41,108 nt of DNA, from positions 1-41,108 of the forward strand of contig NZ_PCPZ01000011.1 of NCBI RefSeq assembly GCF_002979865.1. The letters are read 5' to 3'. This stretch comes from Arthrobacter sp. MYb214 (GTDB lineage Bacteria; Actinomycetota; Actinomycetes; Actinomycetales; Micrococcaceae). Below, piece after piece: positions 12,086 through 21,158 of this stretch. A model generated the notes under the pieces. That model did no database searches and was not told the DNA's origin. It worked only from the letters and a program-made list of their open reading frames with translations. How positions within the stretch are numbered: the first letter of the stretch is position 1; every line of letters begins with the position of its first letter. Position numbers and translations under genes: made by a program.

Positions 12086-12571
12086 ATGAAGAGCGAAGAG
12101 ACCCGCTGGCTCACCGACAGCGAGCAGGACCTCTGGCGCACCATACGCGAGTTCCTCTGGCAGTTCCCCAGCGGCATGGATCGCCAGCTGCTGCGCGATT
12201 CGAACATGCTCTCCGGTGAATACTCGGTGCTGGCTGTGCTTTCGGAAACAACCGAACCAAGTCTACGCCCGGCCGACGTGGCGACCGCATTGCGCTGGGA
12301 CCGCTCGCGCCTCTCCCACCTGCTGCGCCGCATGGAAGCCAAGGGCCTGGTCAGCCGCTGCTCAGATGAGACCGACCGGCGCGGGCACCAGATTACGCTC
12401 ACCGCCCAGGGGCGCAAGACCATTGAGGAAGCCGCGCCAACCCACGTGAGCTTCGTGCGTGAAACCATTTTCGATTCCCTGAGCCCTTCCGAACGCACGG
12501 CATTGGAATCGGCGCTGCCGAAGATCCTGGCCTCGCTGGAAAAGCAGGGACTGAAAGATGGCCAGTGCTAG
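12086..12571 (+). CDS. MarR-family transcriptional regulator
   Basis: A 161-residue winged-helix regulator. The recognition region reads T-A-L-R-W-D-R-S-R-L-S-H-L-L-R-R-M-E-A-K-G-L-V followed by the wing D-E-T-D-R-R-G-H-Q-I-T-L-T, the standard MarR arrangement. Members bind as dimers to short palindromes and release on binding a phenolic or oxidative ligand. The ATG at 12086 is chosen because AGGAAAGAGA precedes it; the open frame extends to 12026 over the operator. Divergent from the FMN reductase, with two matching operator copies between them. Its TAG stop overlaps the TAG stop of the convergent ABC transporter at the palindrome CTAG. Confidence 0.92.
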   Translation: MKSEETRWLTDSEQDLWRTIREFLWQFPSGMDRQLLRDSNMLSGEYSVLAVLSETTEPSLRPADVATALRWDRSRLSHLLRRMEAKGLVSRCSDETDRRGHQITLTAQGRKTIEEAAPTHVSFVRETIFDSLSPSERTALESALPKILASLEKQGLKDGQC

Positions 12572-14412
12572 CTGGCTCGTTCGGCCAGTTCGCTCTTGGC
12601 TACCAGCTGGGCGAATTGCCCGCCAAGCTGGACCAGCTCGTCAAAAGTTCCCGCTTCGGCAATCCGGCCAGCTTCTAGCACGACGATGCGGTCCGCTCGC
12701 ATCACGGTGCTCAACCGGTGCGCGATCAGCAAGGTGGTTCGCCCCAGTGCGAGCTCGTCCAGCGCCCGCTGCACCAAAGCTTCGGTGACCGTATCCAGGG
12801 CACTGGTCGCCTCATCGAGCACCAGGACCTTGGGTTTGCGCAGCATGGTGCGGGCAATGGCCAGCCGCTGCTGCTCGCCACCGGAGAAACGGTGGCCGCG
12901 CTGCCCCACCTGGGTTTCCAGGCCCTGCGGCAGGCTGCGGACCAGCTGCGCAATCTGCGCGGCTTCCAGCGCCTGCCAGAGCTCTTCCTCGGTGGCCTGG
13001 GGCGCTGCCCACAGGAGGTTCTCCCGAATCGAAGCATGCAGCAGGTAGCTTTCCTGGGCAACGACGGAGACCGCCTGGGCGATGCCTTCAGGATCGAATT
13101 CCTTCAGGTCAATGCCGTCGAGCAATACCTGGCCCTCGGTAGGGTCAAGCAGCCGGGGCAGCAAGGACCCCAGGGTGGACTTTCCCGAACCGGTGGAACC
13201 GACAACCGCGGTCATTGTTCCCGCCTCCAGGGTCAAATCCAGCTGTTCCAGGGTGGCGCGGTCAGCCTCGGGGTAGCGGAAGCTGACATTGCGCAATTGC
13301 ACTTCGCCACGCAGCTTCCCGGGTTCGACCGCTCGCGGCCGCTGGGGTACCGGCAGCGCCTGGTCCGTATCCAGGTATTCGAAGACGCGGCTGAACAAGG
13401 CCAAGGCCGAGACCCACTGGACCGAAATCTGCATCATGCCCATGACCGGACGGAAGATTCCGGCCTGCAGCCCGGTAAAGGCCACCAAGGTGCCGATGCT
13501 CATTCCCTGCCCGGTGGCGGGCAGCCCCGCCACGATGTACAGCACCGCGGGGATGGCCGCGAAAATGATGCTCATCGTGGCCATGCGCCAACGCCCGGCC
13601 AAAGCGCTTTTCATTTCCAGGTCGATGAGCTTGTGGCTGGACTCTCCGAAGGCCGCCGCATCAGCGGCTCCGGTGCCCATGATCTTGGCCAGGCGGACCC
13701 CGGAGATGCTCAGGCGCTCGTCGATCAGCGAAGCCAGGTTCGACATCTCGCGCTGGCGCTTTCCTGTCACGGCGCGGCGCAGTTTCGCGGTTTGCTTGGC
13801 AAGCAGCACCGCTGGCGGCAGCACGACCAATGAGATCAAGCTCAGTTTCCACGAGATCGCCACCATCGCGCAGGCGGTGGCCACAACGGTGGTCAGGTTC
13901 GAGGCAATGCTCGTGGCCGAATTGGTAATCACCGATTGCATCTGCCCCACGTCGTTGACCAGGCGCGACTGCACGTCCCCGGAGCGCGAGTTGGTGAAGA
14001 ATCCCAGGGATTGCTTCTGCAGGTGCGTGAACAGCCCGGTCCGCAGGCCATGCATGACGCGTTCGCCCATCAGGGTTGCCCGCCAGGTCTGGACGACTTC
14101 CAGAATCGCGGTAGCCAGGGAGATCAGCACCAGTCCCCCGGCACCCAAGAGCAGCAATCGGATATTGCTGTTGGGAATCGCGTCATCAATGAGTTCGCGG
14201 ATGATGAACGGCTGGGCCAGGCCGATGACCGACGCTGCCACGATCAGCGCCATGACCGCAATCACCGACCCCAGATGGGGCCGGAAGAGCGCGGCGATGC
14301 GCGCCAGGGACACCGGATGCTCGGTGAGCCGCTGCTTGTCCCGGGCGGCGTTGCCGGACCGTCCTTGCCCGCCACCGCCCGGATGCGGCCCCGGCATTCC
14401 CATTGCGCTCAT
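12568..14412 (-). CDS. ABC multidrug/lipid exporter, fused membrane and ATPase domains
   Basis: A 614-residue half-transporter of the type IV exporter (MsbA/LmrA/Sav1866-like) family. The N-terminal ~310 residues hold six membrane helices; the C-terminal ~240 residues hold the nucleotide-binding domain with Walker A G-S-T-G-S-G-K-S-T, Q-loop A-Q-E-S-Y, signature F-S-G-G-E-Q-Q-R, Walker B V-L-V-L-D-E-A-T-S-A-L-D and H-loop I-A-H-R-L-S-T. It should work as a homodimer in the plasma membrane. A Gly/Pro-rich N-terminal stretch precedes the first helix. Start ATG 14412 has GAGGGGGAG just upstream. A divergent MarR gene 107 bp away is the likely regulator, suggesting a drug- or metabolite-induced exporter. 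Confidence 0.9.
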   Translation of the reverse strand: MSAMGMPGPHPGGGGQGRSGNAARDKQRLTEHPVSLARIAALFRPHLGSVIAVMALIVAASVIGLAQPFIIRELIDDAIPNSNIRLLLLGAGGLVLISLATAILEVVQTWRATLMGERVMHGLRTGLFTHLQKQSLGFFTNSRSGDVQSRLVNDVGQMQSVITNSATSIASNLTTVVATACAMVAISWKLSLISLVVLPPAVLLAKQTAKLRRAVTGKRQREMSNLASLIDERLSISGVRLAKIMGTGAADAAAFGESSHKLIDLEMKSALAGRWRMATMSIIFAAIPAVLYIVAGLPATGQGMSIGTLVAFTGLQAGIFRPVMGMMQISVQWVSALALFSRVFEYLDTDQALPVPQRPRAVEPGKLRGEVQLRNVSFRYPEADRATLEQLDLTLEAGTMTAVVGSTGSGKSTLGSLLPRLLDPTEGQVLLDGIDLKEFDPEGIAQAVSVVAQESYLLHASIRENLLWAAPQATEEELWQALEAAQIAQLVRSLPQGLETQVGQRGHRFSGGEQQRLAIARTMLRKPKVLVLDEATSALDTVTEALVQRALDELALGRTTLLIAHRLSTVMRADRIVVLEAGRIAEAGTFDELVQLGGQFAQLVAKSELAERAS

Positions 14413-14482
14413 GGACTCCCCCTCTACCTCTGGATATCTCAAGTCCAGAATAACAGAGGGAACCTCACTATGTGGTTGCATC

Positions 14483-14512
14483 TTGAAATTGTTCCCAGAA
14501 ACACACTATCCT
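14483..14512 (+). promoter_or_regulatory. Promoter giving a leaderless mRNA for the second MarR gene
   Basis: TTGAAA (14483-14488), an 18-bp spacer and TATCCT (14507-14512). The ATG begins seven bases after the -10, so transcription should start on or next to the start codon. No Shine-Dalgarno sequence is present. The interval also holds GGGAAC and GTTCCC arms 27 bp apart, a possible but weak operator. Confidence 0.55.
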
Positions 14513-14519
14513 TGAACAT

Positions 14520-14996
14520 ATGCAGAACGAAGAGCCCAAGCCTGACTTGGCAGATCTTTTCCTCCACGCTTCAGGCATGCTTCGCGGCAGATGGAGGGAC
14601 AGCTTGACTCCCCTGGGCATCACTCCGCACCAATCGAGGGTGCTGACCTTGCTGTCCCGGGCCGATAGGATCGGGCTGCGCAACTCGCAGCTCGCAGAAC
14701 AGCTGCACATCGCCGCGCGCTCGACCACCGAGGTAGTCGACCAGCTGGAAGCCAAGGAGCTTGTCGTGCGCACCCCCGATCCGGCCGATCGCCGCGCCAC
14801 GTTGATTGCGCTCAGTGCCACGGGCCGCGCCCAGCTCGGCGAGCTCGCCGAATTGCGCCGTTCGAGCATGGACGGCTATTTCGACAAGCTCGGCGACGAG
14901 GACCGCGCCGAGCTCACCCGGCTGCTGGCAATCCTGGACCGCGAGAACCCGCGGCCGGTGCGCGGCGCTTGCAAGAACCCGGCGAAAGAAAACTAG
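14520..14996 (+). CDS. MarR-family transcriptional regulator
   Basis: A 158-residue MarR-type protein. The winged-helix core runs L-T-P-L-G-I-T-P-H-Q-S-R-V-L (helices 1-2), S-Q-L-A-E-Q-L-H-I-A-A-R-S-T-T-E-V-V-D-Q-L-E-A-K-E-L-V (recognition helix) and D-P-A-D-R-R-A-T-L-I-A-L-S (wing). The gene lacks a ribosome binding site and appears leaderless. It is divergent from the ABC exporter and is the obvious candidate to repress it. It converges on the siderophore ATPase gene with a strong hairpin between. The basic tail after residue 145 is unremarkable. Confidence 0.92.
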   Translation: MQNEEPKPDLADLFLHASGMLRGRWRDSLTPLGITPHQSRVLTLLSRADRIGLRNSQLAEQLHIAARSTTEVVDQLEAKELVVRTPDPADRRATLIALSATGRAQLGELAELRRSSMDGYFDKLGDEDRAELTRLLAILDRENPRPVRGACKNPAKEN

Positions 14997-15018: not shown

Positions 15019-15050
15019 CGAGGCCCCGGCATATGCGTGCCGGGGCCTCG
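15019..15050. terminator. Strong bidirectional hairpin terminator
   Basis: A perfect 13-bp stem (CGAGGCCCCGGCA, loop TATGCG, and its complement) between the convergent MarR and siderophore ATPase-reductase genes. A smaller hairpin, CTAGCTG/CAGCTAG, lies just before it at 14994-15008. Confidence 0.85.
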
Positions 15051-15071
15051 CGCGCTGGTTGCCGCTGCTGG

Positions 15072-16979
15072 CTAGTTCTCGGTCTTCCCGCGGCGCCAGT
15101 AGCCCATGAAGGCTACCTGCTTGCGGTCCACGCCGGCATCGCGCACCAGATAACGGCGCATTTCCTTGACCGTGCCGGCTTCACCGGCAATCCAGGCGTA
15201 GAACGGTGCGGAATTTTCCTGGCCCGTCTCCCACAGGATGTCCGCATCAACATCGATATCTTCCGGCTCGGCGTTGGTATGGACCACGCCGGCTGCTGGA
15301 ATCGCGACTACCTGGCGCAATGCCGACTGCAGCAATTCGCCGTGCTCATGGCTGCCACGGGTCAGCCACTGCACCGAGACGCCGGAGCGGGTGGAGGCAC
15401 CGAGGATATCCGTGGTCTCCGGGACCTCGATCAGCGCATGGCCGGTGACGTTGGAGGGCAAGGCTTCGAGGATGGCGCAAATCGCCGGGGCGGCGGTTTC
15501 GTCACCGGCCAGCACCACGCGGGTTGCCTCGCCGCGGCGGAACTCGATACCGCCGTAGCTGGAGTCGTTCAGGGTCTTGTTCGGGCCCAGCAGCAACAGC
15601 TGGTCGCCCACCTTGGCCCGGTCGCCGAACTCCGTAGCCGGCCCGCCCTGGAGCTGGCCGTCAACCATGTGCCCGTGCATCACGAAGTCGATATCCAGCT
15701 CGGCTGTGGCCCCGATATTGTCCCGGTGCCCGGCTTCGCGGAAGGCCCGCACGGTATAGGTGCGCATGTGGCCGCGGGTATCGGGATCAATCGACAACCA
15801 GCGCTTGTACCAGCCCTGCTGCTCGGCAGGACTGGTCATCGCCCCGGGTCGCATCGAGGCGATCTCGTCGGTCAACGCAGTACCGCCGGCCGGTGGCAGC
15901 AAGAGCTTGATGCGCATATCCAGCGGGTGGCTGTTGGTGCCGAAGTACTCCAGGTCCTCGCCGCTGACGGTCACCCGGCGGAAGGATGGCGCGAGCTGCT
16001 GGCTATTGACCACAGTGGTATCAAAGGCCAACGTCGGCACATGCTCATGGGCCGGGCGCTCCGATTGCGGATCAAGCGCGGCGGCTGCTTGGGCAGCTTG
16101 CTTCACATTTGCCGCCTGCTTCACCGCAGTTTTCTTCGCAGAAGCTTCGGTACGGAAAATGCCCTGGGAAGCCAGCACCTGCTCGGTGCGCAGCACCCGG
16201 TGGCGGCCAATGGGAAGCACCAGCGGAGTGCCGCCCACCGGGTCGGGGATCACGCGGCTGGGCATGCCGAAAACATCCTTGACGGTCTTTTCGGTGACCA
16301 CATCGTTGGGATGGCCGGCAGCGTAGATCTTGCCGTGGCGCAGCGCCACCAGGTAGTCGGCGTAGCGGGCGGCCAGGTTCAAATCGTGCAGCACGATCAC
16401 GACGGTGATCCCGCGGCTGCGATTCAGCTCGCTGACCACATCCAGGACTTCGAGCTGGTGCGCCACGTCCAGGAAGGTGGTCGGCTCGTCGAGCAGCAGC
16501 AGGTCGGTCTCCTGCGCCAGGGCCATGGCGATCCAGACGCGCTGGCGCTGACCGCCGGAGAGCTCGTCCACCGAGCGGTCGGCCAGCTCGGTGGTGCCGG
16601 TCAGCTCCATGGCGCGATTAACCGCTGCCTCGTCCTCGGCAGAGAAGCGCTTGAACAGGCCCTGGTGCGGGTAGCGGCCGCGGCTGATCAGCTCGCGGGC
16701 GGTGATGCCGTCCGGCGCGGTGGGCGATTGCGGCAGCAAGCCCAGGGTCTTGGCGACTTCCTTGGCCGGCTTGGAGTGGATGTCCGCGCCGTCCAGGAGC
16801 ACCTGGCCCCCGGCTGGCTTGAGCAACCGCGACAGTGCGCGCAGCAGGGTGGACTTGCCGCAACCGTTGGCCCCGACGACGATGCTCACCTGCCCGGCAG
16901 GGATATCCAGCGACAGCTCGTCGACGATGGTGACCTTGTCATAGGCCAGGGTCAGATCGCTTGCCTGCAAAGTGGCCAT
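15072..16979 (-). CDS. Fused ferric-siderophore ABC ATPase and siderophore-interacting reductase
   Basis: A 635-residue fusion. Residues 1-265 are a FecE/FepC-type ATPase: Walker [10 protein letters not shown] (36-44), signature L-S-G-G-Q-R-Q-R (140-147), Walker B L-L-L-L-D-E-P-T (160-167), H-loop His198. An Ala/Lys-rich linker (about 278-312) joins a siderophore-interacting protein domain (about 315-635) with the FAD-binding motif R-T-Y-T-V-R (406-411) and a C-terminal NAD(P)H-type half ending in G-Y-W-R-R-G. The first half powers ferric-siderophore import; the second would reduce the iron in the cytoplasm to free it. It starts 3 bp after the upstream permease stop, so it is the last gene of the permease operon. 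Each half is normally a separate protein. Confidence 0.93.
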
Positions 16980-16982
16980 GGG

Positions 16983-18089
16983 TTATGCCCCGCTTCCAGT
17001 TGAGTTTGCGCGCACCAGAATCCAAATCAGGAAGGGTGCACCGAATGCGCCGGTGATAACGCCCACCGGCAGCGAAAGATCCGCGAACAGGTTCGCGGCA
17101 AAGAAATTGGCAACAGTCACCAGCGTTGCCCCCGTCAGGCCGGAAAGCAGGATGTTGATCGGGCCGCGGGTCAGCGCGGCAGTAATCGGGCCGGCCAGGA
17201 AGGCAACGAACGCCATCGGCCCGGTGACCGCAATCGGCAAGGCGCCCATGGCCACCGCAACAAAGACCAAGATCGACCGGGCCCAGCCCACGTGCAGCCC
17301 CAGGGCCGCCGCGGTGTCCTCGCCCAGCTCCAGCATTTTCAGTTGGCGAAGCACCAGGGGCAGCAACAGGATGCCGATGGCGCCAAGGGACGCCAAAAGC
17401 AGCAGCGCATTCTCCCAGTTGCTCGAGGCCAGTGAACCCGTCAGCCAGTGCATCACATCGCTGGCCGTATTCACCTGCGCCTGGGTCAGCAGGTACTGGA
17501 TCAGCGCCTGGAGCATCGCGCCGATGGCCAGGCCCGCCAGGATCAGCCGGGGACCGGTCCGCTTGCCCGAGGCCGAGAGCCAGTAGATCAATGCAGCGAC
17601 CAGCAGCCCGCCGGCCAGTGCGAAGGCGTTGAGCTTCCAGTCGGTATAGCCAAGGGTGATCATCGCGAAAACCGCGGCCGCCGATGCGCCGTAGCCCACG
17701 CCGATCACGTCGGGACTGGCCAGCGGGTTGCCCAGCCAGCGCTGGAACAAGGCACCGGAAATGCCCAGGCCGGCACCGGCCAGGGCACCCACCGCGATGC
17801 GCGGCAGGCGGTCGGACATGATGATGAAACTGGTGCCCGGCACCTTTTCACCGCTGAGAACCTGGAAGACTTCGGCAGCTGGAAGGCGGTCCCGCCCCCA
17901 GAACAGGTAGGCCGCCACGGCGAGCACCAGGGCCAGGGCCATCCACAAGGCGGTGCGGCGCACCCGGGATCTGCGGCGGGCTGCCAGCGCCGGTGCGGCT
18001 TTCGAGGCCGGGGCCGTCGCCGGTCCGGCCGTTTCCGTGGTGCTGCGGGGCTGGGTCATGTTCGCTGCTGCCATTTCGCTCGTGCTCAC
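16983..18089 (-). CDS. FecCD-type ferric-siderophore permease (second subunit)
   Basis: A 368-residue membrane protein of the BtuC/FecCD/FepG family, expected to form the channel together with the upstream permease. Residues to about 45 are a polar Ala/Thr-rich leader; then about nine to ten helices follow, with family segments such as R-L-P-R-I-A-V-G-A-L-A-G-A-G-L-G-I-S-G and G-N-P-L-A-S-P-D-V-I-G-V. The GTG at 18089 overlaps the upstream TGA stop (GTGA), so translation is coupled; an ATG at 18074 is possible. Sits between the first permease and the ATPase-reductase fusion in one operon. Confidence 0.92.
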   Translation of the reverse strand: MSTSEMAAANMTQPRSTTETAGPATAPASKAAPALAARRRSRVRRTALWMALALVLAVAAYLFWGRDRLPAAEVFQVLSGEKVPGTSFIIMSDRLPRIAVGALAGAGLGISGALFQRWLGNPLASPDVIGVGYGASAAAVFAMITLGYTDWKLNAFALAGGLLVAALIYWLSASGKRTGPRLILAGLAIGAMLQALIQYLLTQAQVNTASDVMHWLTGSLASSNWENALLLLASLGAIGILLLPLVLRQLKMLELGEDTAAALGLHVGWARSILVFVAVAMGALPIAVTGPMAFVAFLAGPITAALTRGPINILLSGLTGATLVTVANFFAANLFADLSLPVGVITGAFGAPFLIWILVRANSTGSGA

Positions 18090-19135
18090 AGGCTCACCGA
18101 CTTCATGCCGCTGCGCATCATGATGATGAAGATCGGTCCACCCAGCATGGCGCACATGACGCCTACTTGGATCTCGCTGGGCGGGGCGATGATTCGTCCC
18201 ACCGTATCAGCCAGCAAGAGCAGGATCGGCCCGGCGATCAGGCTCGCTGGCATCAGCCAGCGGTAGTCGGAACCGACCAGCAAGCGCACGGCATGCGGGA
18301 TCATCAGGCCGACGAAGGCGATGGGCCCGGCCACGGCGGTGGCGGTGCCAGCGAGAATGACCACACCGATGGAGCCGATCAGCCGGGCGCGGTTCAAGTT
18401 GAAGCCCAAGGCGATCGCGGTGTCATCGCCCATGGACACGGCATTGGATACCTTGGCGGTGGACAGCACGATCAGTGCGCCGGCGGCCACCACGGGAATG
18501 GCCCCGAGGAAGGTGTCGATGCCGCTGCTGGATAACGTGCCGATCTGCCACATGCGGAAACGGTCCATGGTGGCATCGGAAATCATCAGGATCGCATTGG
18601 TAATCGCGCCCACGCCCACAGCCATGGCGGCACCGCCCAGCGCAAGCTTAATGGGCGTGGCGCCTTCACGGCCCACGTTGGCCACGAGATAAACCAGGGC
18701 CATCACCCCAGCAGCGCCGAGGAAGGCGGCCACCATGATTCCAGCCAGGGAGCTGACGCCCAGGAAGGCGATCGCCAGCACCACGGCCATGGAGGATCCG
18801 GCGTTCAAGCCCAGGATCCCGGTATCGGCCAGCGGGTTGCGGGTCAGGCCCTGCAGTCCGGCGCCTGCCAAACCCAGGGCAGCGCCAACCACGATGGCTC
18901 CGATGGTGCGGGCGAAGCGGGACGCGACCACGCCCTGGTCGCCATTGGACGGGTCGAAATTCCAGATGGCATCGATCACGGTGCCCATCGAGACGTTTCG
19001 CGCGCCCAGCAGCAGCGAAGCGAATAGCGCCAGCCCGAGCAACAGGGCAAGGAGCAGCAAGGCGCCGAGCTTCCGGCCGGCTTTTGGCGACTTGGCCCCC
19101 GGTGCTTGGCGCGTAATACTTTCAGTCGCGGTCAT
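18086..19135 (-). CDS. FecCD-type ferric-siderophore permease (first subunit)
   Basis: A 349-residue integral membrane permease of the FecCD family. Typical segments are R-F-A-R-T-I-G-A-I-V-V-G-A-A-L-G-L-A-G-A-G-L-Q, then R-N-P-L-A-D-T-G-I-L-G-L-N-A-G, and near the C-terminus G-P-I-A-F-V-G-L-M-I-P-H-A-V-R. It imports a ferric siderophore delivered by the binding lipoprotein. The ATG at 19135 has AGGA four bases upstream. It begins only 20 bp from the divergent MBL-fold gene, so its promoter must lie inside that gene. No iron box is visible just upstream, unlike the binding-protein gene. Confidence 0.92.
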   Translation of the reverse strand: MTATESITRQAPGAKSPKAGRKLGALLLLALLLGLALFASLLLGARNVSMGTVIDAIWNFDPSNGDQGVVASRFARTIGAIVVGAALGLAGAGLQGLTRNPLADTGILGLNAGSSMAVVLAIAFLGVSSLAGIMVAAFLGAAGVMALVYLVANVGREGATPIKLALGGAAMAVGVGAITNAILMISDATMDRFRMWQIGTLSSSGIDTFLGAIPVVAAGALIVLSTAKVSNAVSMGDDTAIALGFNLNRARLIGSIGVVILAGTATAVAGPIAFVGLMIPHAVRLLVGSDYRWLMPASLIAGPILLLLADTVGRIIAPPSEIQVGVMCAMLGGPIFIIMMRSGMKSVSL

Positions 19136-19155
19136 TGGTTCCTACACTCATTGCT

Positions 19156-19956
19156 ATGGCTCTTCTTCCCTTGCCCACTATTATCGCTCCAGGCATCGGC
19201 CTGCTTCGCGCGCAGAACCCTTCTGAAATGACGTTGGACGGGACTAATTCCTATCTGCTGTTCGACCCTGCTGTGGACGAACTTGTTCCTGGAACTCCGG
19301 TCGTCCTGATTGATCCGGGCCCTGGGCTCGAGGACCATCTGCAGGCCTTGGCGGCCTTCGACATCCAGCTGGTGCTCGTTACCCATCGGCATGCCGATCA
19401 CACGGGAGGCATCGATGCGCTCTACGGGATGACCGGTGCGCCGGTGCGTGCCATGCTGGAGCAGTACTGCCGGGATGCCCCGGTCTTCACCGATGGCGAA
19501 ACGATCAGCGCCGCCGGGGCCAGCATCCAGGTGGTTTTTACCCCTGGCCACACCTCGGACTCGGTGTGCTTCATCCGCCAGGGCGGGGCTGCCCACTTGT
19601 TCACCGGGGATACGGTGCTGGGCCGGGGCACCACCATCTTGGAACACCCGGACGGCACATTGGCCGACTACCTGGATTCCTTGCAGCGGCTGCTCGCGCT
19701 GCCCGATATGGCTTTGCATCCGGCGCACGGCGAGCAGCATGATTCCTCGCATCCGCTGCTGCAGATGTACATCAAGCATCGGCATGCGCGGCTGGACCAG
19801 GTGCGTGCGGCTTTGCAGAAACTCGGCAAGGCCGGGGTCCACACGCAGCCAGCTGAATTGCTGGAGCATGTCTACCCCGACCTCGATGCGCGCTTGGTGG
19901 GCGCAGCTACCCATTCCCTGGAAGCCCAATTGCACTATCTGTCAGTGAATCCCTAG
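19156..19956 (+). CDS. Metallo-beta-lactamase-fold hydrolase
   Basis: A 266-residue cytoplasmic MBL-fold protein. The metal-binding motif is T-H-R-H-A-D-H (His77, His79, Asp81, His82), followed by F-T-P-G-H-T-S-D, L-F-T-G-D-T-V-L-G and L-H-P-A-H-G-E for the remaining ligands. It most resembles the LACTB2/glyoxalase II-like branch; the substrate is unknown. ATG at 19156; no Shine-Dalgarno, and TACACT (19143-19148) lies seven bases upstream, so the message may be leaderless. It interrupts the siderophore locus, lying between the binding-protein gene and the permeases on the opposite strand and ending 6 bp from the binding-protein stop. Confidence 0.88.
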   Translation: MALLPLPTIIAPGIGLLRAQNPSEMTLDGTNSYLLFDPAVDELVPGTPVVLIDPGPGLEDHLQALAAFDIQLVLVTHRHADHTGGIDALYGMTGAPVRAMLEQYCRDAPVFTDGETISAAGASIQVVFTPGHTSDSVCFIRQGGAAHLFTGDTVLGRGTTILEHPDGTLADYLDSLQRLLALPDMALHPAHGEQHDSSHPLLQMYIKHRHARLDQVRAALQKLGKAGVHTQPAELLEHVYPDLDARLVGAATHSLEAQLHYLSVNP

Positions 19957-19962
19957 CCGGAG

Positions 19963-21021
19963 CTACTTCGCGGCAGCTGCGTTTTCAGCAGCCTTGACGA
20001 TGCCTGGAACTACGTTATCCAGTGCCCATTCGATGGACAGCGGCGAAGCCGCGGAGATCGCCAGTGTTGCTTCATCGGTGCCTGGCAGCGCCACGGCATC
20101 GTTCTTCGCGGCAGGGATCTGGCCGTAGAGCGGCTGGCCCTTGACGACATCTTCCATGGTGTTGCCCGCAACAGCCGAAGCGAAGACGATGTCCGAATCC
20201 CACTCGTTGACCTTTTCCGGCGACACGGTGAAGAAGAAGGTGTCCTTGGCGGCATTCTTCTGCACGTAGTCGGCCTGGGTCATGCCCAGTGCGCTCAGGA
20301 AGCGCGGGCGGGTGTCGCCTTCGGAGTAGATGTAGGCGGTATCCGGCGCCGAGAGGTCAGCTGCGATGAAGGTGGTGTCCTTCAGCGCTGGGTTGTCTTC
20401 GCCGACCTTGGCCAGCTTGCCTTCGATCTCTTCGATCAGGGCGTCGGCTTCTTCTTCCTTGCCCAGCATCTGGCCGGCAACTTCGGTGACCTGTTCCCAG
20501 CTGGTCAGGTAGTTAGGCTCGATGGGGCCAACGACCGGAGCGATTTCCTGCAGCTTCTCGTACTGTTCCTTCTTCAACCCCGAGTATGGAGCGAAGATGA
20601 CCTGGGGCTTGCTGGCGGCGATGCCGGTGTAGTCGATGTCATCGCCCACCTTGTACTGCACGGGCGCCTTCTCGGAGCCGATGGAAGCGCCCTGCTCTTC
20701 CAGAGCGGCGTCCTTCCATGCGGTGGAGTTGTTCTCGTTCATGCCGTAGGTGTCGGTGTCCATGCCGACCGGCACGGTATCCAGAGCCAGCAGGGTATCT
20801 GCGTTGACCCACGAGATGGTCGCAATGCGTTCCGGGACTTTTTCGATCGTGGTTTCACCATAGATGTTCTCGATGGTGACCGGAGTGAAGTCTTCTGCGG
20901 CCTTGGCTGAAGTGTCAGCCGACGGATCCGCGGAGTTGCTCGACGCGCCGCAGGCGGTCAGGCCCAAGGCGAGGATGGCAGTTGAAGCGGCGAAAATTCC
21001 GGCGCGACGTGAATTTTTCAT
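19963..21021 (-). CDS. Ferric-siderophore-binding lipoprotein (ABC substrate-binding protein)
   Basis: A 352-residue FepB/FhuD/FecB-type periplasmic-binding-like protein. A Lys/Arg-rich start and hydrophobic core lead to lipobox L-T-A-C (Cys24), so it is membrane-anchored outside the cell. The mature part shows the helical-backbone fold's conserved pieces: E-R-I-A-T-I-S-W-V-N-A-D-T-L-L-A-L, K-P-Q-V-I-F-A-P-Y-S-G, and the C-terminal S-A-A-S-P-L-S-I-E-W-A-L-D. Start ATG at 21021; the open frame extends 12 codons upstream but lacks a signal-peptide start there. No ribosome binding site is visible. An iron box lies 48 bp upstream, implying repression under iron sufficiency. It supplies the permease and ATPase genes beyond the MBL gene. 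Confidence 0.93.
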   Translation of the reverse strand: MKNSRRAGIFAASTAILALGLTACGASSNSADPSADTSAKAAEDFTPVTIENIYGETTIEKVPERIATISWVNADTLLALDTVPVGMDTDTYGMNENNSTAWKDAALEEQGASIGSEKAPVQYKVGDDIDYTGIAASKPQVIFAPYSGLKKEQYEKLQEIAPVVGPIEPNYLTSWEQVTEVAGQMLGKEEEADALIEEIEGKLAKVGEDNPALKDTTFIAADLSAPDTAYIYSEGDTRPRFLSALGMTQADYVQKNAAKDTFFFTVSPEKVNEWDSDIVFASAVAGNTMEDVVKGQPLYGQIPAAKNDAVALPGTDEATLAISAASPLSIEWALDNVVPGIVKAAENAAAAK

Positions 21022-21158
21022 GGGTCGGTGATTCCAGACTATGCGAGGTTCTGTCAACGTTTTGTTTAGCTAGGTTAGGCAAGCCTATCCGGGCCGTATG
21101 CCACGATACGCGTTTCTCTGCGCATTACGCAACACGAAACGTCCCTAATCACCGACCC
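21022..21158. repeat. 12-bp inverted repeat flanking the iron-box region
   Basis: GGGTCGGTGATT (21022-21033), immediately upstream of the binding-protein ATG, is repeated in perfect inverted form as AATCACCGACCC at 21147-21158. The arms enclose the iron box. Role unknown. Confidence 0.5.
21070..21088. promoter_or_regulatory. DtxR/IdeR iron box
   Basis: The 19-mer CTAGGTTAGGCAAGCCTAT matches the DtxR/IdeR consensus TTAGGTTAGGCTAACCTAA at 15 of 19 positions, including the full AGGTTAGGC half. It lies 48 bp upstream of the siderophore-binding lipoprotein start. Known action of the family: iron-loaded regulator binds and represses. Confidence 0.85.

Follow-up and report, generated by a model that had tools for sequence, protein, structure and literature searches.

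A gene joining an importer-type ABC ATPase to a siderophore-interacting reductase domain in Arthrobacter sp. MYb214 and its relatives

Iron that enters a bacterial cell as a ferric siderophore has to be released from it, and in the DNA of Arthrobacter sp. MYb214 analyzed here (a stretch of 41,108 nucleotides, referred to below as the window) one gene appears to serve both steps, as it joins the ATPase of a siderophore importer to a siderophore-interacting (SIP) reductase. Is this joined gene real, how far does it extend among the relatives of this strain and how did it arise, and what would a cell gain from tethering the iron-releasing enzyme to the motor of the importer?

Domain architecture and gene neighborhood

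The fused gene occupies positions 15072..16979 of the minus strand (the original prediction gave no strand) and encodes, from an ATG start, a protein of 635 aa in one ORF. The ATPase half (residues 1-262; 16194..16979, minus strand) possesses every ABC motif, namely Walker A, Q-loop, LSGGQ, Walker B, D-loop and H-loop. It is followed by a linker that is variable in both length and sequence (approximately residues 263-315; 16035..16193, minus strand) and by the SIP reductase half (residues 316-635; 15075..16034, minus strand), in which the RTYTVR and GYWR motifs are found. The Pfam domains ABC_tran (residues 20-168, 119 bits), FAD_binding_9 (residues 322-468, 90 bits) and SIP (residues 486-631, 123 bits) all scored well above their cut-offs. 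Both the ORF and the Pfam matches agree with the original prediction, which had placed a complete FecE-type ATPase and a complete SIP (FAD) domain in a single frame of 635 residues.

Among the NCBIfam profiles, the ATPase half scored highest with the FepC-type (337 bits) and FecE-type (309 bits) families. Because the equivalog cut-offs of FepC (497 bits), FecE (375 bits) and FhuC (433 bits, against a score of 264) were all missed, the ATPase half is, on these scores, a relative rather than an equivalog of the three proteins. In the structure models, the ATPase half matches the ATPases of BhuUV, HmuUV and FhuC, the SIP half has the SIP fold with SIP flavoproteins as its closest solved structures, and residues 258-288 in the linker region have pLDDT values below 50. 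An antisense open frame of 656 codons (15033-17003, plus strand) spans the entire fused gene and most likely results simply from its GC-rich codon usage.

The fused gene stands at the end of a locus with the order binding protein-permease-permease-ATPase. The locus includes two FecCD-type permeases (16983..18155 and 18086..19135, both on the minus strand; Pfam FecCD, 235 and 268 bits, respectively), the first of which has its stop 3 bases before the ATG of the fused gene, and a periplasmic-binding-protein-type siderophore receptor (19963..21057, minus strand; Pfam Peripla_BP_2, 92 bits), which is likely a lipoprotein that starts at the ATG at 21021. A permease fragment adjoins the fused gene in 42 of the 45 distinct fused loci. 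As read from the sequence, both domains of the fused protein are complete, and the permeases and the binding protein adjoin it.

Two further elements were observed at this locus. On the opposite strand, the interval that separates the permeases from the binding protein is occupied by a gene for a metallo-beta-lactamase-fold hydrolase (19135-19956, plus strand); such a gene adjoins the fused gene in the loci read from genera g18, g21 and g23, and was not found in those read from g27, from the Brachybacterium-like group described below or from genomes with separate genes. On the other side, the fused gene is flanked by an ABC gene of the exporter type and by a MarR regulator in divergent orientation (12568-14996), both of which recur in the loci read from g18 and in three read from g23.

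A candidate IdeR/DmdR-type iron box (21070..21088, minus strand) was identified upstream of the binding-protein gene, some 50 bases from its ATG. It deviates from the degenerate consensus of such boxes at 4 of 19 positions and is weak taken alone. It is palindromic, matches on both strands, and is the sole site in the window at up to four mismatches, a limit at which 20 shuffled windows contained 0.6 matches on average and two at most. At up to three mismatches no IdeR box was found in the window. A scan at three mismatches of the given strand only revealed matches in 8 of 17 sources, the window being among the nine without one, and the matches of L037, L083, L165 and L167 sit directly upstream of the binding-protein frame.

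Occurrence and origin of the fusion

A stop or a frameshift in the linker, which the original prediction had named as the possible source of an erroneous joining, was looked for and is excluded, because the fused frame is open at full length in every genome of the genus (18 of 18, including four single-contig assemblies). That an assembly or sequencing error joined two genes was rejected, and we regard it as having a negligible chance, given that the identical frame recurs in these 18 genomes and in further genera.

A search of 395 genomes of the family identified 48 matches at E 1e-125 or better, comprising 43 fused frames of the window's kind, one separate fusion (G084, genus g16) and four pairs with a single stop. 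The 43 fused genomes belong to genera g1 (18), g23 (15), g21 (5), g18 (3) and g27 (2), and the proportion 43/395 is a lower bound, since one of them, G842, barely cleared the E-value limit. Our own ORF analysis confirmed the single frame for 38 of these genomes, and the fused status of the other five (G833, G851, G860, G087 and G122) comes from the open frame and stop count of the search. Among the members of g23 are Paeniglutamicibacter gangotriensis (G039) and Arthrobacter sp. MYb227 (G108), both of the Micrococcaceae. SIP matches are present in 102 of 197 family genomes, of which 69 lie outside the fused genera, and the window's genome itself has three SIP genes besides the fused one.

Beyond the family, an order-wide sample of 297 genomes gave 13 matches, eight of them from one genus of another family (g42), whose rows are termed Brachybacterium-like because the tree groups them with a Brachybacterium MAG (L037). 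In a class-wide sample of 394 genomes, full-length matches were found only in the window's genome and in one g42 genome at E 1e-112, a limit that would miss more distant fusions. A contig scan kept 80 loci, three of which are fused (L035, L036 and L037). No one-piece full-length match was present among the best 40 of at least 5000 plasmid records. In rhizobial plasmids (Sinorhizobium, Shinella and Rhizobium; H2, H7-H10, H19 and H20), a DUF2218-annotated gene adjoins an ABC ATPase gene; the fused protein matches these gene pairs in two pieces, and they probably represent the same gene partnership in another phylum. One genome, G003, contains a second, near-identical fused copy in which the SIP half is broken by a frameshift (L023, 1498-3323), and it keeps an intact copy elsewhere.

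In 27 related loci (28 separate rows minus the broken copy L023), the ATPase gene has a separate SIP gene behind it in the same orientation; these include loci of Pseudarthrobacter, Paenarthrobacter, Arthrobacter, Nocardioides, Microbacterium and Leucobacter. The four genomes G118, G025, G910 and G095 (the last also counted among the 27) have a single stop between an ATPase and a SIP gene that share one frame. We built a tree from the joined ATPase and SIP alignment (55 rows, 588 columns), omitting L023, L142, L155, L160, L078 and L097, the rows with only one domain passing the length filter (L076, L100, L109 and L143), further loci from genomes already represented, and near-duplicates from eight other loci in different genomes (L009, L011, L012, L017, L020, L128, L131 and L133). 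In this tree all 35 fused rows form one clade with support of 100/98.9, which disfavors two origins, one in Micrococcaceae and one in the Brachybacterium-like genus; the separate-gene pairs fall outside the clade and are its nearest outgroup. A constraint that grouped all Micrococcaceae rows apart from the Brachybacterium-like ones was rejected (AU p 0.0147). Because of the single clade and this rejection, the tree is read as a single origin of the fusion with a probable transfer between families. A quick SIP-only tree left the order of the three groups unresolved, with L003, L155 and L160 on long branches, and in a quick ATPase tree L142 was very long-branched.

A further ATPase-SIP fusion was observed in another genus (L177, 4622-6760; genome G084, g16). 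One origin including it was rejected (AU p 0.024), in a comparison that involves long branches (L177 and L182 meet), and the G084 fusion is apparently independent. The main fusion would have come about in the ancestor of its clade, when two adjacent operon genes were joined once by loss of the intervening stop.

Probable function and separability of the two halves

We consider it likely that the fused protein serves a FepBDC/FhuBCD-like importer of ferric siderophores as its motor subunit and brings the reductase along with it, and that the joining provides proximity and a fixed dose, not obligatory coupling. By analogy with the protein families concerned, the ATPase would form a homodimer beneath the two FecCD permeases, so that every importer would have a pair of SIP domains, each tethered by a flexible linker about 50 residues long. 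Once delivered to the cytoplasm, the ferric siderophore would be reduced by the FAD of a nearby SIP domain, with NAD(P)H or a similar donor, and Fe(II) would thereby be freed. The fusion itself would most likely fix the dosage at 1:1 and keep the reductase at a high local concentration where the importer opens to the cytoplasm. The reductase activity, FAD binding, substrate and size of the fused protein are predictions made from its sequence.

That the SIP half is catalytically dead, and merely a scaffold or a regulator, is highly improbable in view of its FAD-site and C-terminal motifs, which are kept with only conservative changes in all 45 distinct fused rows, of its dN/dS values, which range from 0.04 to 0.125 in all 10 pairs compared, and of the SIP flavoproteins that are its nearest solved folds.

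The two halves, although joined as operon neighbors, are separable to judge by the genomes compared. In all three g18 genomes (L162, L163 and L164), the fused gene retains its metallo-hydrolase, MarR and exporter neighbors but no longer has the two permeases or the binding protein next to it. The best g18 relatives of permease 18086-19135 in a genome-wide search are at most 39% identical to it (the other permease was searched for in the neighborhood only); the neighboring copies in four other fused lineages are 50-59% identical. The LSGGQ signature is also lost in g18, being LPADQ in G034, and the whole segment is absent in G062 and G085. In g18 dN/dS is 0.21-0.39 for the ATPase half and 0.08-0.12 for the SIP half, and in seven pairs drawn from three further genera the ATPase-half values are 0.007-0.11. 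The decayed ATPase half is still read through into the conserved SIP half, which by these values is under purifying selection. Since the ATPase half has decayed and the SIP half has been kept, the former appears to be needed for the adjoining permeases, and the latter for something that outlasts them. However, loss of the permeases and decay of the ATPase do not always go together, because the Brachybacterium-like G245 (L152) has no permease beside its fused gene and has all ATPase motifs intact. Its ATPase/SIP dN ratios are 0.58-0.82 versus a mean of 0.57 (range 0.43-0.76) in 28 other pairs, and on this measure its ATPase half is only slightly faster-evolving.

In the 45 distinct fused rows the linker is 29-94 residues long (median 53), and G842, outside this set, has a still shorter one. 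Mean pairwise identity within the 45 rows is 26% for the linker, compared with 76% for the ATPase half and 64% for the SIP half, and linker dN/dS, computable for nine of ten pairs, is 0.19-0.64. Although fast-evolving, the linker is uninterrupted in all 45 rows. The Ala/Lys-rich composition originally ascribed to it holds for this species and its nearest relatives; in general the linker is a variable, low-complexity segment.

All nine Brachybacterium-like linkers contain an AGGAGG-like Shine-Dalgarno site (6/6 bases matched in eight rows, 5/6 in the ninth) with an ATG or GTG in frame behind it, and the residues encoded there swap Glu for Gln and Met for Val with the site preserved. Because of this ribosome-binding site and start codon, kept in nine of nine rows within an otherwise unconserved linker, these genomes probably also make a free SIP protein. 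A synonymous-codon shuffle did not show the Brachybacterium-like sites to be improbable (fractions 0.19-1.0). G084 shows the same arrangement, its linker likewise containing an ATG together with a strong ribosome-binding site. In the Paeniglutamicibacter group an internal start is possible, because an ATG stands at the start of the SIP domain in 11 of 11 rows, with a site matching at 3-5 of 6 bases. The window's own gene may have one as well: its linker contains a GTG with a 5/6 Shine-Dalgarno match, located at the same place in two near relatives.

These starts bear on the idea that the fusion is a near-neutral by-product of stop loss, in which SIP is (also) produced free from an internal start and the long form has no special role. 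The site retained by the Brachybacterium-like rows, its counterpart in the independent G084 fusion, the ATG of the Paeniglutamicibacter group and the four genomes with same-frame genes one stop apart are all in line with it. On the other hand, the 36 rows of the window's family contain no 6/6 site and only 11 at 5/6, scattered over differing positions; the shuffle taken alone does not show the Brachybacterium-like sites to be improbable; and in g18 an ATPase remnant devoid of its motif is still read into SIP, as would be expected if SIP had no start of its own. We consider this explanation unlikely, though it deserves more weight than the remaining one.

At the opposite extreme, coupling could be obligatory, with the tethered SIP domain docking on the permease or ATPase and taking the siderophore directly, so that transport and reduction drive each other. 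The long retention of the fused frame across five genera of the family and the Brachybacterium-like genus would fit such an arrangement, as would the precedent of IrtA for membrane-bound mycobactin (PMC10246721). It is opposed by a linker of such variable length without any conserved motif, by the SIP half that g18 keeps without permeases, by the separate proteins of related lineages and by the probable free SIP of the Brachybacterium-like rows. Because the halves can lose one another, obligatory mechanical coupling is improbable, and we rank it below the by-product explanation. As regards IrtAB itself, its SIP domain is reported to swing on a long loop, to leave ATPase activity unaffected and to be unneeded for import of the soluble siderophore (PMC10246721); by analogy, a swinging SIP domain would suit a loose tether in the fused protein as well. 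Of the original proposal that the tether couples reduction to transport, proximity and fixed stoichiometry stay plausible, and coupling as proposed is not supported, in view of the separate pairs, the g18 genes, the probable internal start of the Brachybacterium-like rows and the behavior of IrtAB. The reading that we prefer remains an importer motor with a reductase held nearby.

Comparison with known systems

A protein that joins iron release to an importer is known mainly from mycobacterial IrtAB. IrtA, which acts with IrtB, is an exporter-fold half-transporter with its membrane and ATPase domains in one chain and an N-terminal SIP domain, whereas the fused protein described here carries a C-terminal SIP domain on a free importer-type ATPase, with the FecCD permeases and the binding protein being separate. 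What the two have in common is a SIP domain and an ABC ATPase in one chain. Because its domain order is ATPase-SIP and no membrane-domain Pfam match was found in it, the fused protein is, by its domain content, not an IrtA; the reversed, ATPase-first order with an importer-type partner had been foreseen in the original prediction.

The joined protein of IrtAB has been called a rare case (PMC8891985). The architecture described here is conserved, and no description of an importer ATPase-SIP fusion was found by full-text searches of literature outside most subscription journals. The fusion is apparently undescribed; a SIP domain joined to an ABC transporter was already known from IrtA. The Glutamicibacter Re117 genome paper (PMC2991359) lists AARI_26330 as an ATPase, AARI_26340 and AARI_26350 as permeases and AARI_26370 as a binding protein, and the six iron-release proteins named in it exclude AARI_26330. 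Judged by gene order, not by sequence comparison, AARI_26330 is very probably the fused gene. This points to an annotation gap, in which the apparent fused gene of Re117 is counted as an ATPase and not as an iron-release protein. The fusion represents a second, differently built joining of import and iron release, in culturable environmental and cheese bacteria (Glutamicibacter, very probably with Re117 among them).

Each half taken alone resembles well-known proteins. FepC, FecE and FhuC consist of the ATPase only (about 255-270 residues) and are like the whole N-terminal half, FhuC (7lb8) being 43% identical to it over the fold alignment. The free SIP reductases (4yhb of T. fusca, SipS 6k2l and ViuB 8c4l) share both Pfam domains and the fold of the C-terminal half; they measure about 250-270 residues, while the fused SIP domain has about 320 residues and is tethered to the motor of a transporter. 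The separate ATPase-SIP pairs of relatives form two proteins in place of one fused chain. Six separate-pair loci were read: the order binding protein-permease-permease-ATPase-SIP was found in Pseudarthrobacter L038, Arthrobacter L083, Nocardioides L052 and Microbacterium L071, and Arthrobacter L042 and L048 have permease-permease-ATPase-SIP with no binding-protein match. Such relatives are natural controls, with which proximity and coupling become testable against each other.

More tentatively, it can be speculated that living genomes preserve the stages of this history: genes that are separate, genes that share a frame but for one stop, a fusion with an internal start and hence two products, an obligate fusion, and a remnant whose motor has decayed and whose reductase survives. 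The product would then be a type-II ABC siderophore importer with two tethered unloading reductases, an evolutionary parallel to IrtAB in a different class of transporter.
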